Notes: a model not told the origin generated them from the letters alone. A DNA stretch of 30,465 bases from a virus (IMGVR_UViG_3300024520_000348:1-30465), one strand, 5' to 3'; positions 2,715 to 26,357 are shown, counted from the stretch's first letter. Program-made: numbers and translations.

Positions 2715-3518
2715 CTACGACGTGGTGACATCCAGAACGATCCCGGACGACGCCTCGTTCCGAGCTTCCAGCGTGTACTCGCAGATCAACTGCTTGCGCT
2801 CGCTGTCGCCGGTCTTGGCCAGATCCGTCAACTGGAACTGCCGAAGGTAGGCAACGGCCCACATATCCTTCTGCAGAATGAAGACGTTTCGGCCGAGGCC
2901 GGACGTGCCCAGGAAGCGGTTGGGGATGACTTCCAACATGCCCCAGTCGCTCTCATAGTACGAGATCGCACCATGCAAACGGCCGTGTTCGGCCGACACT
3001 TCCCTTGTCGCGTTGCCCGTGAACGTGCTCATCTGGCGCTTGTTGAACCCGTCGAGCATAACGCAATCGGGGTCACCGCCGGCATTCCACGTGGACTGCA
3101 AGACAGTCAACAACAGAGTTTCCGTGAAGGCGCGCTGGGTTCCATTAACGGCCGCCGTGCTGCCATCACCGGTTCCGGCAGTGCCGGTGGTGGACGTGTT
3201 GGTGTTGATCCAAGCGGGCACGCCGCCCAAAGCGCGGGCAGTGGACGCGTCGCCAACCGCACTGGCTGTGTTGGCGGTAACAATGAACTCCATGTCGCGC
3301 ATCAGCTCCAAAGAGCGTTTTGCGACCTGGTAGTCCATTTCCGAAACACGACCGGCGGAAACGATATTCTCCTGCGTACCGGAAACGCGCGGCACCTTGT
3401 CGGAGATCTGCGTGTAGTTGAATCGCCGGGTGGTGGCGACCGCAGCATCCGTGGTGGCGTCGGCGCCTTCCTTCACCGCGTTCGCAGCGGCGGCGGCAAG
3501 GGAGTCTAGTTGCCATTC
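2715..3518 (-). CDS. Major capsid protein, exon 3 (main part); SU10 major-head/DUF5309 family
   Basis: This exon encodes 267 residues of a 316-residue spliced protein. It begins EWQLDSLAAAAANAV and contains YTQISDKVPRVSGTQE, VAKRSLELMRDMEF, GTQRAFTETLL and a C-terminal LAKTGDSERKQLICEYTLEA, all characteristic of SU10-type HK97-fold major head proteins. Homologues begin about 50 residues earlier with a GNREDL...YN(I/V)(S/A)PT(D/A)TPF...HEWQ block. Here that block is supplied by exons at 5415-5507 and 4395-4448. The exon has no credible start of its own: only a TTG spans the splice junction. Splicing after CAT at 4395 to GAA at 3518 restores H-E-W-Q in frame. It forms the icosahedral shell; a terminator follows. 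Confidence 0.93.
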   Translation of the reverse strand, partial: EWQLDSLAAAAANAVKEGADATTDAAVATTRRFNYTQISDKVPRVSGTQENIVSAGRVSEMDYQVAKRSLELMRDMEFIVTANTASAVGDASTARALGGVPAWINTNTSTTGTAGTGDGSTAAVNGTQRAFTETLLLTVLQSTWNAGGDPDCVMLDGFNKRQMSTFTGNATREVSAEHGRLHGAISYYESDWGMLEVIPNRFLGTSGLGRNVFILQKDMWAVAYLRQFQLTDLAKTGDSERKQLICEYTLEARNEASSGIVLDVTTS

Positions 3519-4394
3519 CAATTTGTTACTACTTCCAACACGGAAGCGGGCCAGACGTCACCGCCTTAGCCTCTTACGGTCTCCCGCAAGATCGGACTCT
3601 ATCTTTACCCTGTTGCCAGGGCGTTCGGCATATTAGCCTCTGAGGATAGCCTACGCGGACGCCAGGACCGATTTTCATACGGCCCAGCAGAAGCCCATTC
3701 ATCAACCCGGTCTTGCTTTCGAGCGATATTGAAACGAGCGCCGCTGTCAACCCACGACTGCATTTTCACAGTAAACCGAGTGGGCGCCTTATAGCCCTCT
3801 TTTAACGGTTTTTCTGTCGATACCTTGCCTATTCTAATGCCGGTTATCTCTAGCAGTCGAACAAAATCAGGCACCCATGGATCACAAGACTTGTATCCCA
3901 TGTAATACCGTCGATTTGTCGGGTTTTCTTTATGAGCACCAACAAACCCCTCGCTGTCCATCAGGCCGACGATAAATGCCAGCCTGTTTTCTTTCGACCA
4001 CCCTGCAACATAAGATGGGATGATTTGCTTTTTCTCGGTATCTTCCACCAAGATCCAACAAAGGTCATCACACCTAGAAACAAGCGAATGGTTGGGTTTG
4101 CTGCTTTTTTTGACAGCGTAAGTGTTGATGTACGCCGTTTGATCGGTCAGACCGTCAAGCGCACTCTTCACTGTTTCTGCGAAGTCCCTGTCAATGGTGT
4201 TTAAGCGGAAACACCGCCTATCAGACGGATATCCACCGGGGACAGTAACACAACCGTCTCCCAAATAAACACCTAACAGATATGCGTAACTCTTTCCTGC
4301 TGATTGTCTAATTTCCACAACTTTTCCTCTGCGGGGTGTGAAATTCTAAAGAGGTCCCAGCATATAGCCGAATTTTACAAGCACCAATGGTTTA
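3519..4394 (-). ncRNA. Group I intron 2 in the major capsid gene (LAGLIDADG-carrying)
   Basis: 876 bases. The 5' exon ends in U (CAAGCAU) and pairs with the internal guide GUGCUUG at 4384-4378, giving a 7-base-pair P1 with the diagnostic U-G at the splice site. P3 is UUCGGC (4372-4367) with GCCGAA (3629-3624). P4 is UGCUG (4362-4358) with CAGCA (4302-4298). P8 is CCCUG-GCAA-CAGGG (3608-3621). The S-like element AAGAUAGAGUCC lies at 3605-3594. P9 is a 7-pair stem with a GAGA tetraloop (3573-3590). The intron ends in G before GAATGG. Splicing restores the capsid frame exactly. I could not build P7 fully by eye. Confidence 0.92.
3605..4318 (-). CDS. LAGLIDADG homing endonuclease encoded in intron 2
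   Basis: 237 residues from a GTG start at 4318 preceded by AGAGGA. Two LAGLIDADG motifs are visible: AYLLGVYLGDG (about residues 12-22) and LAFIVGLMDSEG (about 113-124). Each ends in the acidic metal-binding residue, as expected of a single-chain enzyme of about this length. Such enzymes cut intronless alleles to drive intron homing. The ORF begins inside the intron core: the Q-like element (AATCAGCAG) encodes residues around 5-8. It ends in P8, its TAA overlapping the P8 hairpin, so protein and ribozyme share bases at both ends. The start region lies in a predicted P5 extension (CCTCT/AGAGG and AATTTC/GAAATT), which may restrain translation. Confidence 0.9.
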   Translation of the reverse strand: MEIRQSAGKSYAYLLGVYLGDGCVTVPGGYPSDRRCFRLNTIDRDFAETVKSALDGLTDQTAYINTYAVKKSSKPNHSLVSRCDDLCWILVEDTEKKQIIPSYVAGWSKENRLAFIVGLMDSEGFVGAHKENPTNRRYYMGYKSCDPWVPDFVRLLEITGIRIGKVSTEKPLKEGYKAPTRFTVKMQSWVDSGARFNIARKQDRVDEWASAGPYENRSWRPRRLSSEANMPNALATG

Positions 4395-4448
4395 ATGCTT
4401 GGTTGAAGTTGCCCTTTCAACGGCAATGCCGGTGATGAAGGGTGTTGC
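4395..4448 (-). CDS. Major capsid protein, exon 2 (18-codon micro-exon)
   Basis: 54 bases encoding ATPFITGIAVERATSTKH, which matches the conserved (D/A)TPF...H stretch that precedes EWQ in SU10-type head proteins. It is flanked on both sides by group I introns. The preceding intron ends ACAAAATTG and the following intron's 3' end is ACAAATTG, a shared 3'-end style. The length is an exact multiple of three and joins exon 1 (ending ACT) and exon 3 (starting GAA) without a stop. Confidence 0.88.
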
Positions 4449-4505
4449 CAATTTTGTTCTTTACGCCGGCTCTTTATCCGACGCTTCTACACATTACTGT
4501 GTAGC

Positions 4506-5360
4506 TCAGACTATCTCATCCGTTTCCGGCGAGGCGCTCGTGGGGGAAGTTACTGCCGTGGGAGGCTGATCTGGGTTTATCCAAGGGCGGTATGTTCTGT
4601 TTGCCGCCTTAAATTTGCCCGCACAACGTTTTGAACAAAAAACATGCTTATTGTTCTTAACATCACTCCAGCGTTTCGAAAGAAAAGTACCGCACCATTC
4701 GCAATGGCCGCACCATCTCCTGTAGGCTTGTCCCCTAGTCGTTACACCTTCAATGGGCTTTCGCCCAAAGCTTGGCTCGGGATTGCCCCCGGCATTATCC
4801 GGTAGGGTGTTCCCCGAATTCACCTCGTTTGCTGCTAATGCAGTATGCACTGCCCAATGACACTGGAAGCAAAACGTTATGCCATTTTCCAGATCAGCCC
4901 GAAGCTCCGGGTTCGTCTCAAATGGCTTTATATGGTGCGCATGCAACTCAACATCTGTTGCGCCGCAATGCTGGCAAGTTGCGCCATCTCTACTGATAAC
5001 GTTTCTTGCCCACGCACCTTGCTTGCCCCTACGATTATGCCGACGGCCGCTGGGTTTATAATTCGGGTGATCTTTACCCGAACGCCTAAACCCGCCCTTA
5101 TCGGCACATGGTTTGGAGCAAAACTTTTGCTTTCGGAATGTTGCGACGGTTCCTTTCGGGTCATACCGAAAAACATCACCGCAATATTCACAAGTCTTTT
5201 CACGCTCGCCGCCTGACCAGGATGGGTGGTTTTCGCCGGTCCAATTTTCAGACCGCCACTTTCCACGACAGGCATATGAGCAAAACTTGTACGTCTTAGC
5301 CCTGTACGGAGTGACTTCCTTGGCGTCACCACATTGCAGGCATTGAACAGTCACTTTCAT
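4506..5360 (-). CDS. HNH homing endonuclease with zinc-finger repeats, encoded in intron 1
   Basis: 284 residues; GGAG lies 9 bases before the ATG. N-terminal zinc-ribbon modules have CxxC pairs at about residues 7-10, 27-31, 57-60 and 81-85, with a KWRSENWTGENHPSW linker typical of phage HNH enzymes. The HNH core is at 129-172: CQHC, HAHH, the N of ENG, FCFQCH and a final H. Residues about 182-209 are a low-complexity linker encoded by the intron's P, Q and R core. A further Cys-rich finger (WCGHCEWCG...FCSKRC, 217-246) lies in the P7-P8 insertion. It nicks or cuts intronless capsid genes to promote homing (family knowledge). Reading through the ribozyme core is unusual. Confidence 0.9.
   Translation of the reverse strand: MKVTVQCLQCGDAKEVTPYRAKTYKFCSYACRGKWRSENWTGENHPSWSGGEREKTCEYCGDVFRYDPKGTVATFRKQKFCSKPCADKGGFRRSGKDHPNYKPSGRRHNRRGKQGAWARNVISRDGATCQHCGATDVELHAHHIKPFETNPELRADLENGITFCFQCHWAVHTALAANEVNSGNTLPDNAGGNPEPSFGRKPIEGVTTRGQAYRRWCGHCEWCGTFLSKRWSDVKNNKHVFCSKRCAGKFKAANRTYRPWINPDQPPTAVTSPTSASPETDEIV
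5217..5274. repeat. 58-bp repeat (copy 1, inside the intron 1 HNH gene)
   Basis: Encodes the KWRSENWTGENHPSW linker of the HNH endonuclease. Its partner is at 16030-16087 with a single mismatch. Confidence 0.9.
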
Positions 5361-5414
5361 TCGACATCTCCTTCAAAGATGCCGAATTATACTACATCAG
5401 AGGACCGCAAGTCC

Positions 5415-5507
5415 AGTCGGAGCAACGTTGTATATAGTGTCCGTCAAATCTTCACGATTGCCGGTCACGGCGTATGACACGTATGTGTCAGCAGGTTCGA
5501 CAGCCAT
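5415..5507 (-). CDS. Major capsid protein, exon 1 (start of gene)
   Basis: 31 codons from ATG at 5507, with GGAG ten bases upstream inside the end of the scaffold gene. The product begins MAVEPADTYVSYAVTG and continues NREDLTDTIYNVAPT, the conserved N-terminus of SU10-type major head proteins. The frame would hit TGA six codons past the exon end inside the intron, so only splicing gives a capsid protein. It is directly downstream of the scaffold-like gene, the usual order. Confidence 0.9.
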
Positions 5508-5513
5508 TTGGCT

Positions 5514-6563
5514 TTACTCCTGTGGCTGGCGCATCGCCGAGAAGACGGCCGCCAAGGAACCAATTTCCTTGTGGGTGCCTTGCGCGTCGCGCGCCTGTTT
5601 CATGGCAGTTCGAACGCTCTCAACCTTGGATGCCGCTTTCTGTTTTGCTGCACCTGGTTTGGTGGTTTTACGGGCTTGCCTGACCTTGGTGGTAATTTGC
5701 GGCTTCGCTCTTTGAAGCGCGTCATACGCCATGGCCTTGCGGCTGATACGAATGAAATTCGCGTCAACCATTTGAGCCGTCTGCTCAGGCGTTACGCCTT
5801 CGCTGTGCAGGTAGCCAAACAGCCTATCCACCGCCGGTTGACGGGTAGTCGGGTTGGCAAATTCGGGCCATTCCGCTTCCGTCTTAGCGACTTCGCGCTG
5901 TATGTGTGCCTGCTGTTTCTGCTGGAGTTCCTGTTGCTCGCCGGCGGCAAGTTCCTGCCGCTTGGTTTCGAACTCTTTCAGCGCGCGCTGCTGATCTTCC
6001 CAGCGGTCACGCACATCGCGGTAGTCGTCGCGATCGAGATCGACGCGCAACTGGTTCCAGTCCGGCTCTTTCCCGTAGCCGAGCATTTCCATGGCTTGTG
6101 TATGGAGTGCATCGGCGCCAGTGAGACGTTCGACCAGTTGATCCTGAGCCATCTTCACAGCCTCGTCGAATTGACGGCGCTGCTCGCCTAGCTCAGTGGT
6201 CTTGCTGTGGAAGTCCGTTTCACGCTGGCTCTCCCGGCGCGCAATAGCACGTTGCATGTCAGGTGGGAGTTCAGCGAATTCGGCCTTCTCTTCTGCCGTC
6301 CAGGAGATGGGCGCTTGGCTGGGAGCAATGTCTTCAAGGACATGCTCGTCCTCTGCGCTTTCCTCTTCGTCAGGTACTTCTTCGGTTTCAGAAACCTCGG
6401 CCTCGGCCGCCGCTTCCTCTTCTGCAACCTCGGCTTTGGCTTCCGCCTCCACTTCGGCTTCTTCTGTTTGCAGCTGTTCCGTTGGAGTGTCTTCGACTGG
6501 CTCCTGGGCTGCGAATGCAGCGGCTACATCGGCAATACTAGCTTCCCCTTGGGGATGGGCCAT
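5514..6563 (-). CDS. Scaffolding-like protein
   Basis: 349 residues. Residues about 15-75 are strikingly acidic and Glu/Ala-rich; about 90-215 is charged coiled-coil (TEEKAEFAELPPDMQRAIARRE, then Gln/Glu/Lys-rich helices); the C-terminus about 290-335 is basic (TTKVRQARKTTKPGAAKQK). This acidic, coiled-coil then basic layout immediately upstream of the capsid gene is the signature of podovirus-type scaffolding proteins, which guide procapsid assembly and then leave. It overlaps the preceding small gene and ends 7 bases before the capsid ATG. Confidence 0.85.
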   Translation of the reverse strand: MAHPQGEASIADVAAAFAAQEPVEDTPTEQLQTEEAEVEAEAKAEVAEEEAAAEAEVSETEEVPDEEESAEDEHVLEDIAPSQAPISWTAEEKAEFAELPPDMQRAIARRESQRETDFHSKTTELGEQRRQFDEAVKMAQDQLVERLTGADALHTQAMEMLGYGKEPDWNQLRVDLDRDDYRDVRDRWEDQQRALKEFETKRQELAAGEQQELQQKQQAHIQREVAKTEAEWPEFANPTTRQPAVDRLFGYLHSEGVTPEQTAQMVDANFIRISRKAMAYDALQRAKPQITTKVRQARKTTKPGAAKQKAASKVESVRTAMKQARDAQGTHKEIGSLAAVFSAMRQPQE

Positions 6564-7407: not shown

Positions 7408-7713
7408 CTAGCACTTCCCCGAGTCCCCGCGCCGAACATTCTCCGCATGAGTTACCGGCTCCAGATGATCTGGATTTACACAGCCCGGAACTCGACACAG
7501 ATGGTCAAGGCTAAGTCCGTCAGGAATGGGGCCTACTAACTTTTCGTAAGCGAGCCGGTGTGCGTAAACCATTCGCCCACTAACCTTAAAATGCCCATAC
7601 CCGCCTCTAGTCGTATTCGCATCCCACAGCCAACATCCAGTATTCGGTTCCGCCTGAACCTTGTCCCAAAAGCGATCAGGTAATTCATCTAGGTAAGCCG
7701 ATAACATATTCAT
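7408..7713 (-). CDS. Free-standing HNH endonuclease, truncated by an amber stop
   Basis: 101 residues: an N-terminal domain FWDKVQ...GCWLWDANTTRGGYGHF, then the HNH core LSLDHLCRVPGCVNPDHLEPVT (about residues 67-88), as in phage HNH_3-type nicking endonucleases. It ends at TAG just after RRGDSGKC. Full-length members have another 50-60 residues, and these are present in frame downstream. GAGG lies 7 bases before the ATG. The catalytic core is complete, so the short form might still cut DNA. It is free-standing between virion genes rather than in a visible intron. Confidence 0.8.
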   Translation of the reverse strand: MNMLSAYLDELPDRFWDKVQAEPNTGCWLWDANTTRGGYGHFKVSGRMVYAHRLAYEKLVGPIPDGLSLDHLCRVPGCVNPDHLEPVTHAENVRRGDSGKC

Positions 7714-25066: not shown

Positions 25067-25301
25067 GTCTCCTGCCTTGCCTTCAGGGCCACCGCAGAAA
25101 CTATAGGTTTCGACCCAGCAACTATGACTTCCCTTAAGGCATCCCGCAGCCGCTCTACCTCGTCGGCGGCTTCCGCGCAGTCCTTGGCCGCATCTTTCAC
25201 CACATCTGAATGCCAAAGCGCTGTAAGGTTTTTTGGTGCCCATCACGCAGCATTTCGTCATCATCGCGAAGCCGCTCTACTATGTCTGTGGTGGTGTTCA
25301 T
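25063..25301 (-). pseudogene. Coiled-coil gene with an apparent -1 frameshift at an A-run
   Basis: ATG at 25301 (GGGAGGAAAGCAC upstream) begins MNTTTDIVERLRDDDEMLRD, but this frame stops at 25197 after 34 codons. At AAAAAA (25234-25229) a -1 shift continues as HSDVVKDAAKDCAEAADEVE, RLRDALREV, and ends ARQET with its TGA overlapping the next ATG at 25066. The shifted frame's smooth ending suggests the full gene is meant to be read this way, by slippage on the A-run, or a base was lost. About 79 residues if joined. Confidence 0.65.
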
Positions 25302-25570
25302 GTGCTTTCCTCCCGGGCCGCCGCCTTCAGCATGGCTTGCCATTCAACTTTCGTTCTTTCATCGCTCCATCCGTCAGAAGGCGGAATATTCCAAGCAGCT
25401 TCCAACATCGCCTCTGACGGCTCCATCAGGGCCGCCGTGACTGCTCCAACAGCACGACGCATGGCCACCCGCATATCAGCGCCGTTTGGGTCAAGCCATT
25501 CCTCGGTTGAAATTTCGCCGCCAGAAAATTGTTCGGCCAAAGCCCTCGCCGCCTTCTCAATCATGCTCAT
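25298..25570 (-). CDS. Hypothetical protein, paralogue 1 of a tandem pair
   Basis: 90 residues: MSMIEKAARALAEQFSGG ... TAALMEPSEAMLEAAW ... WQAMLKAAAREEST. The blocks EKxARA, ALMEPxEAM and W.AMLKAA are shared with the next gene upstream, so the pair arose by duplication. The ALMEP/WQAML arrangement is common in small phage and rhizobial proteins of unknown function. ATGA coupling. Confidence 0.75.
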   Translation of the reverse strand: MSMIEKAARALAEQFSGGEISTEEWLDPNGADMRVAMRRAVGAVTAALMEPSEAMLEAAWNIPPSDGWSDERTKVEWQAMLKAAAREEST

Positions 25571-25887
25571 GTCCCTGTCCTTTCCTCATCTCCGTCGAGA
25601 GCCGCCTTCAGCATGGCTGGCCAAGCTTCCTTAGTCGATTCACGGACGCACTGCGCCGGCGGCAGGTGCCCGTGTTTTTTGAATCCCTCGTCCACGGCAT
25701 TGTTGAATGCCTTTATCATCGCCTCGTCTGGCTCCATCAGGGCTTCTATGACGCGACCTGCCTTCTCAAATGCGCAGCGCTGATAATCCTTATGCTGATC
25801 AGGGTAATTATCCAGAATATGCCTGCCGTCAACTTCGCCAAACCAATCCGGCTCTATCGCTCGCGCCACCTTCTCCAGCATGCTCAT
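25567..25887 (-). CDS. Hypothetical protein, paralogue 2 of a tandem pair
   Basis: 106 residues: MSMLEKVARAIEPDWFGEVD ... GRVIEALMEPDEAMIKAFNN ... EAWPAMLKAALDGDEERTGT. Same block order as paralogue 1, with a longer middle. The leader AGGACAGGGACATGAGCATG is identical at both starts, so the duplication included the ribosome binding site. Function unknown. Confidence 0.75.
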   Translation of the reverse strand: MSMLEKVARAIEPDWFGEVDGRHILDNYPDQHKDYQRCAFEKAGRVIEALMEPDEAMIKAFNNAVDEGFKKHGHLPPAQCVRESTKEAWPAMLKAALDGDEERTGT

Positions 25888-26357
25888 GTCCCTGTCCTAT
25901 CGTTGCCTCCAGCCGCGTGGTGCGCGTCCAATATCCCTTGCCCTACCCTGCGAAGCATTGCCCCCAACGGGCCGTCCTTGTGTTTCACGTCCGCCATGAG
26001 CCGCATGTGTTCGGCGTATTGCTCCGGTGACAATATGCGGCTAGGCGGGCCGGTGGGTTCTTCGGCGGGCGGCTTCTTCGCCACGTAGCTCTTTGTCCGC
26101 TGCGCTTCAGCGCATGCCTTCAGGCATACCGCCAGCACTGGCCAGCCCTGCTTATCATGCGTCCGGCGAAGGGTATTCCACGCGTCGTCAAGGACTACAG
26201 GGCCGTAATGGCCGAGAGCGTCAACGTATTCCGTCAGGGACAAGACGATCTTTTCTTCGTTCGAGCGAATGTGGTACGGCGGTGAGTACAGCGCCGCCAT
26301 TTTGGCCACGAAGAATTGCTTGGCGTCGTCTTTTTGGGCTGGAGTAAGCATGCTCAT
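25884..26357 (-). CDS. Possible replication-accessory protein
   Basis: 157 residues. Helical, with EEKIVLSLTEYVDALGHYG and LRRTHDKQGWPVLAVCLKAC near residues 33-87 and a Pro-rich break (KKPPAEEPTGPPS). The LxxYxxAL...GWP....LKAC pattern is reminiscent of phage helicase-loader-type proteins, but this is weak. Starts MSM with ATGA coupling like the two genes after it. Confidence 0.6.
   Translation of the reverse strand: MSMLTPAQKDDAKQFFVAKMAALYSPPYHIRSNEEKIVLSLTEYVDALGHYGPVVLDDAWNTLRRTHDKQGWPVLAVCLKACAEAQRTKSYVAKKPPAEEPTGPPSRILSPEQYAEHMRLMADVKHKDGPLGAMLRRVGQGILDAHHAAGGNDRTGT

Follow-up and report, generated by a model that had tools for sequence, protein, structure and literature searches.

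Gene structure of the locus

The DNA analyzed here is a metagenome-derived virus contig from an uncultured tailed phage, IMGVR_UViG_3300024520_000348:1-30465; its whole stretch of 30,465 nucleotides (nt) is called the window below. On the minus strand, the window holds a major capsid gene of the SU10 type in three exons, separated by two putative group I introns that each contain a homing endonuclease gene. Exon 1 (5415-5507) has 93 nt and 31 codons and ends in GCTCCGACT; exon 2 (4395-4448) is a 54-nt micro-exon of 18 codons, ATPFITGIAVERATSTKH; and exon 3 (2715-3518) has 804 nt, or 267 codons plus stop. Joining the three in frame gives 316 codons plus stop. The junctions expected in the spliced product are GCTCCGACT followed by GCAACACCC for exons 1 and 2 (also given as GTTGCTCCGACT and GCAACACCCTTC), and ACCAAGCAT followed by GAATGGCAA for exons 2 and 3 (also given as ACCAAGCAT and GAATGGCAACTA).

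The spliced protein of 316 amino acids (aa) matches the Pfam family SU10_MCP (PF17236) over its full length (9.9e-91, profile positions 6-291 of 292). The score is 304.7 bits, versus 262.1 for the open reading frame (ORF) of exon 3 alone, a loss of 43 bits; with PHROG 1328, 'major head protein' (1.4e-95), the corresponding scores are 322.7 and 265.9 bits, a loss of 57. When all positions and frames of the window were scanned with the 18 profile columns of exon 2, its location at 4448 came out on top, scoring 25.6 with a runner-up at 7.2. The columns of exon 1 score 42.8 at its place, and -2.1 at the runner-up over all frames. In an alignment with 78 uninterrupted relatives from IMG/VR, which supports all three exons, the residues flanking each junction lie side by side, with zero columns gained or lost, and the solved homologous capsid protein PDB 9ny2 also aligns over both junctions without gaps.

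The boundaries can also be recovered by a spliced-profile search, in which an intron must follow T and end in G but its position is otherwise free. With the window and the related locus L013 left out of the profile (L numbers denote loci on other contigs), the search returned introns at 5414-4449 and 4394-3519, exactly the same four boundaries; on 79 uninterrupted loci, the same procedure called zero introns. A sequence-only reading of this DNA had proposed a capsid gene split around an 18-codon micro-exon, with 5415 joined to 4448, 4395 joined to 3518 and a continuous frame of 316 codons; the profile match, the gapless alignment and the search made without the window bear this out in every part. 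At the level of sequence, the exons, their boundaries, the ribozyme signatures and the endonuclease families are confirmed.

In an unspliced precursor, the capsid frame would run into a TGA (5399) six codons into intron 1, and the first codon of intron 2 is likewise a stop (TAA at 4394). Splicing might conceivably have been lost, leaving a dead gene or a short capsid protein made from exon 3 only, whose frame is open over 268 codons from a TTG at 3521; atypical 3' ends in some relatives of intron 2 (see below) would fit such decay. However, exons 1 and 2 are undamaged, no other place in the window comes near them in fit to the profile, both guide sequences still match both flanking exons, and the 48 residues at stake are kept by all 78 continuous relatives and by the solved capsid 9ny2. 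We consider loss of splicing very unlikely.

Intron 1 and its HNH gene

Both insertions have the features of group I introns, a class that the data support, and guanosine-dependent self-splicing is predicted for each. The terminal U of the 5' exon forms a U.G pair with the internal guide sequence (helix P1), the guide also pairs with the 3' exon (P10), and each intron ends in AAAUUG, with the terminal G. A conserved P4-P6 and P7-P8 core is recognized as well, in intron 1 by the Rfam model RF00028 and a model of our own, R1, and in intron 2 by P7 and P8 and by its relative L204. Each intron contains a gene of a homing endonuclease family, and the motifs LLGVYLGDG and FIVGLMDSEG are present.

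Intron 1 (4449-5414, minus strand) is 966 nt long, and introns at the same codon occur in L142 and L153. Its guide, UUGC GGUC (5403-5410, minus strand), pairs through GGUC with GACU of the 5' exon, with the U.G pair at the splice site, and through UUGC with GCAA of the 3' exon. Intron nucleotides 5-12 (UUGCGGUC) are therefore complementary to the joined exon GACU-GCAA, including one U.G pair; in a shuffle control, such pairing had a frequency of about 0.03. RF00028 matches the intron with 41.1 bits (E 2.2e-7; the gathering score of 50 is not reached). The 19 capsid introns behind R1 lack endonucleases and come from other contigs, none from the window; R1 locates the core (P4-P6 and the 5' strand of P7) at 4823-4711, minus strand, with 48.7 bits (E=1.5e-10). 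The R1 structure is 94.5% paired and changes on both sides in 23 of 34 pairs, which is strong covariation.

The HNH endonuclease gene of intron 1 (4506-5360, minus strand, 284 aa; Pfam HNH PF01844, 5.1e-8) runs through the ribozyme core, so that the frame contains the HNH domain, then the core (translated as VNSGNTLPDNAGGNPEPSFGRKPIEGVTT), then a C-terminal zinc finger. The same layout is seen in L142, L089 and L086, and a remnant of it in L153. In the zinc finger, differences between relatives concentrate at third codon positions (9, 6 and 25 by position for the window and L142; L153, L089 and L086 were also compared), and the core shows no such bias in the same comparison. Thus, translation of the HNH protein seems to pass through the core, and the core seems to be held by constraint on the RNA. 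Since the frame crosses the core, translating the HNH gene and splicing intron 1 would be expected to compete. Direct searching with the HNH protein gave two weak matches only, and the true relatives came from a pattern search for the ribozyme core; a pattern for the boundary of exon 1 and intron 1 gave zero matches and was too strict to be informative.

A piece of 66 base pairs (bp) of the HNH gene (5274-5209, minus strand) is repeated with 95% identity about 11 kb upstream, at 16087-16022 on the minus strand, in an unrelated short reading frame. This second piece may be a remnant of the endonuclease gene or its recent ectopic copy.

Intron 2 and its LAGLIDADG gene

Intron 2 (3519-4394, minus strand) is 876 nt long. 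Its guide, CCAUU-g-GUGCUUG (4378-4390, minus strand), forms a P1 of 7 bp between GUGCUUG and CAAGCAU of the 5' exon, and a P10 between CCAUU and AAUGG of the 3' exon (+2 to +6); none of 300 shuffles equalled this pairing. RF00028 matches intron 2 with 25.2 bits (E 0.013, again short of the gathering score) and its relative L204 with 37.0 bits (E=7.7e-6). R1 has no match in intron 2, which is of a different subgroup and was examined through its own relatives.

Across the eight members of the intron-2 family, P1, P7, P8 and P9 consist of standard pairs at 96.6%, versus 77% after shuffling. Compensatory change on both sides occurs in 15 of 23 pairs (7.7 in shuffles), with P1, P8 and P9 covarying among the relatives, and sliding the pairing partners leaves at most 37% paired. 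P7 and P8 are retained in intron 2 itself, P8 with a compensatory change. This covariation is supportive but not blind, because the alignment includes the window and the endonuclease genes were cut out by hand. P1 varies with the exon codons, as in CAAGCAU/GUGCUUG versus CUUGCAU/GUGCAAG; as half of P1 is exon, these introns track codon changes in the capsid gene.

The endonuclease gene of intron 2 (3605-4318, minus strand) has a GTG start and encodes 237 aa (Pfam LAGLIDADG_3, 8.7e-6). Eight relatives of the protein were found at 52-68% identity, all eight inside SU10 capsid genes; among 50,697 isolate phage records, it has zero relatives, and the only isolate phage match to the two introns is one stretch of 95 nt. 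The relatives in L204 and L208 lie at the same codon boundary as intron 2, as do those in L209-L211 by guide pairing. The introns of L205-L207 are 4 nt downstream, with each guide re-matched to its own shifted exon, so that the insertion site appears to have slid. The endonuclease frame of L211 extends into exon 3.

The sequence-only reading had assigned both insertions to group I with a terminal G, and their genes to the HNH and LAGLIDADG families; guide pairing, covariation, the R1 match and the Pfam matches agree with this. It had also looked to a covariance search with group I models; RF00028 matches both introns, with scores (41.1 and 25.2 bits) below the gathering score.

Independence and history of the two introns

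Each intron occurs alone in other phages. The intron-1 site, after CCGACT, is the one filled in L142, with a homologous HNH gene, and in L153, where the HNH domain is deleted; the intron-2 site is the one filled, at the identical codon, in L204 and L208. Both sites are empty in L003 and others, and L003 has a capsid protein 66% identical to that of the window as well as matching portal and head genes. The gene in the window would thus be a composite of two separately mobile introns. An assembly artefact or chimera could be suspected in a metagenome-derived contig such as this one, but other contigs independently have each intron at the identical codon, with guides matched to the exons, which makes that a negligible concern.

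With 54 bp between the two sites, an intron that homes would often carry the other along, and by analogy with homing biology, co-conversion of the two would be expected. Neighboring inteins are described as interfering with each other (PMC10643990).

Introns in other SU10-type capsid genes

Searching with a pattern for the intron-1 ribozyme core yielded at least 119 virus-contig stretches, at least 31 of which have the matching core inside an SU10 capsid intron. A general pattern from the Rfam consensus yielded 43 stretches, 4 of them in SU10 capsid genes. Taken with the protein searches, the patterns give at least about 70 introns, spread over 45 other contigs and 19 mapped sites among the matches listed, counts in which one site (L184) is doubtful and some contigs are near-duplicates. 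The most introns per gene among these matches is four, in L083 and L174, and in L113, L148 and L177, two introns are 60 nt apart. Several capsid introns score above the RF00028 gathering score: L083 four times (79-92 bits), L013 (87.9), L089 (59.4) and L153 (50.6).

In samples chosen by capsid protein, introns are rare, at 1 of 80 loci and then 1 of 159 new loci (L294); such scans favor intact genes, since full-length matches rank first. A scan of genome contigs found three relatives, all uninterrupted. The results suggest that SU10-type capsid genes have been invaded by group I introns repeatedly, and 'hotspot' in this context describes recurrence and is not a tested enrichment. The intron in L294, at capsid codon 30, has 191 nt, a P1 of 7 bp and a P10 of 5 bp, and is the shortest well-supported one seen.

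Proposed mechanism and its weighing

We propose that two group I introns, independent of each other, mobile and self-splicing, split the capsid gene on either side of an 18-codon exon, and that splicing yields the message for one 316-aa protein of the SU10 type; we give this reading a probability of roughly 0.93. Late transcription would yield a precursor with both introns. Each ribozyme would fold, with its exon-matched guide aligning both splice sites, and two guanosine-initiated splicing reactions would produce the mRNA for a single capsid protein. The endonucleases would be translated from unspliced or excised intron RNA and would cut intronless capsid genes at conserved codons, after NVxPT and after TxxH, where the intron is then copied in; in mixed infections, the introns could spread in this way to empty capsid alleles. 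Each structural requirement of this scheme has support in the sequence, from which splicing in vivo and cleavage by the endonucleases are inferred. With its shell-protein gene cut in three, in a family that such introns have invaded repeatedly, the phage probably cannot build particles without first splicing RNA.

Several points weigh against the proposal. Both introns miss the gathering threshold of RF00028 (50 bits), a curation cut-off rather than a biochemical feature, and intron 2 is weak when taken by itself. P10 of intron 2 omits position +1, and in L209-L211, the 3' splice site implied by P1 and P10 follows A, A and C rather than G, so the intron-2 family may include decayed introns or ones with an unusual 3' end. 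Finally, exon 2 consists of 18 whole codons; skipping it would be frame-neutral, and a second product is possible.

This last point leads to an alternative in which both introns splice but some transcripts skip exon 2, joining GCTCCGACT directly to GAATGGCAA to give a second capsid form shorter by 18 residues. With both introns lying between codons and 54 nt between them, the skipped form would be in frame, and exon skipping by neighboring group I introns has been published for phages SIOphi and Twort (PMC11878797). Nevertheless, the intron-1 guide pairs over 4 bp with GCAA of exon 2, versus the first base only of GAAU of exon 3, and skipping would drop the conserved TPF and HEW region; we regard it as unlikely in the window. 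A bolder idea, to which we give slightly less credence still, is that group I introns settle by preference in the SU10-type capsid gene, which tolerates several of them at once, and that the two introns here time or dose capsid production, possibly with two forms of the capsid arising by in-frame skipping of exon 2; some members of the intron-2 family (L209-L211) might splice with a 3' A or C in place of the near-universal G. Our preferred reading remains the splicing of all three exons into one protein.

Other features of the window

Directly upstream of the capsid gene is a head scaffolding protein gene (5514-6563, minus strand; PHROG 3927, 1.5e-19), with portal and terminase genes farther upstream, the usual order of head genes. 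The remaining features noted are also on the minus strand. An O-antigen ligase-like membrane protein (1131-2189; Wzy_C, 5.2e-13) adjoins the structural genes and is a possible host surface-modification gene. A further HNH endonuclease gene of a different family (7408-7713; PHROG 826, 6.2e-39) is unlinked to any Rfam intron match, and a radical SAM protein is encoded at the contig end (29489-30442; Pfam 8.1e-8; PHROG 9298, 1.3e-72). Three consecutive overlapping frames at 25298-26357 start with MSMIEKAARAL, MSMLEKVARAI and MSMLTPAQKD, and at least the first two look like paralogues. An Rfam match to HOTTIP_3 at 25284-25611 was discarded, as this is a sequence-only model of a human long non-coding RNA and the match is below threshold.

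Comparison with known systems

Since each particle takes hundreds of copies of the capsid protein, a need to splice its mRNA twice would demand high ribozyme efficiency. Gene callers applied to such contigs would give split fragments or miss the short exons. The set of related introns offers natural pairs of guides and exons, introns at the same site with and without an endonuclease, and an HNH gene whose frame passes through a ribozyme core; it could be used to study the homing of closely spaced introns and the competition between translation and splicing.

Members of the SU10-type major head protein family (PF17236; structures 9ny2 and 7z45) belong to the same family at full length, and the listed isolate phages have an uninterrupted gene. 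Our searches of open-access papers turned up no account of multiple introns in SU10-type capsid genes or of these genes as an intron hotspot, and no paper combining DUF5309 and intron.

A close published case is mycobacteriophage LittleE, where the major capsid gene contains a group I-like intron whose splicing was demonstrated by reverse transcription PCR and N-terminal sequencing (PMC3706429). As in the window, the intron is accompanied by a LAGLIDADG-type endonuclease; unlike the window, there is one intron, the capsid is of the HK97 gp5-related family, and the endonuclease gene is on the opposite strand. A capsid intron in lactococcal phage Tuc2009 is cited in the same paper. Several introns in one structural gene are known from the tape-measure gene of vibriophage ICP1, with four exons (PMC10448857), and from orf142 of phage Twort, with three introns as cited in PMC11878797; these are tail genes, not capsid genes. 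Bastillevirinae phages have two or three group I introns per gene, a small exon between introns, and exon skipping, and according to the authors, these introns colonize core genes of nucleotide and DNA metabolism only (PMC11878797); the genes concerned, for DNA polymerase, terminase and reductase, differ from that of the window. The sequence-only reading had implied that the arrangement was unique, a view that falls with these publications and with related contigs that carry up to four introns, some with exons of 60 nt between them, among the matches listed. Single capsid introns and multi-intron phage genes are already known; what the window adds is a striking variant, not a system of a new kind.
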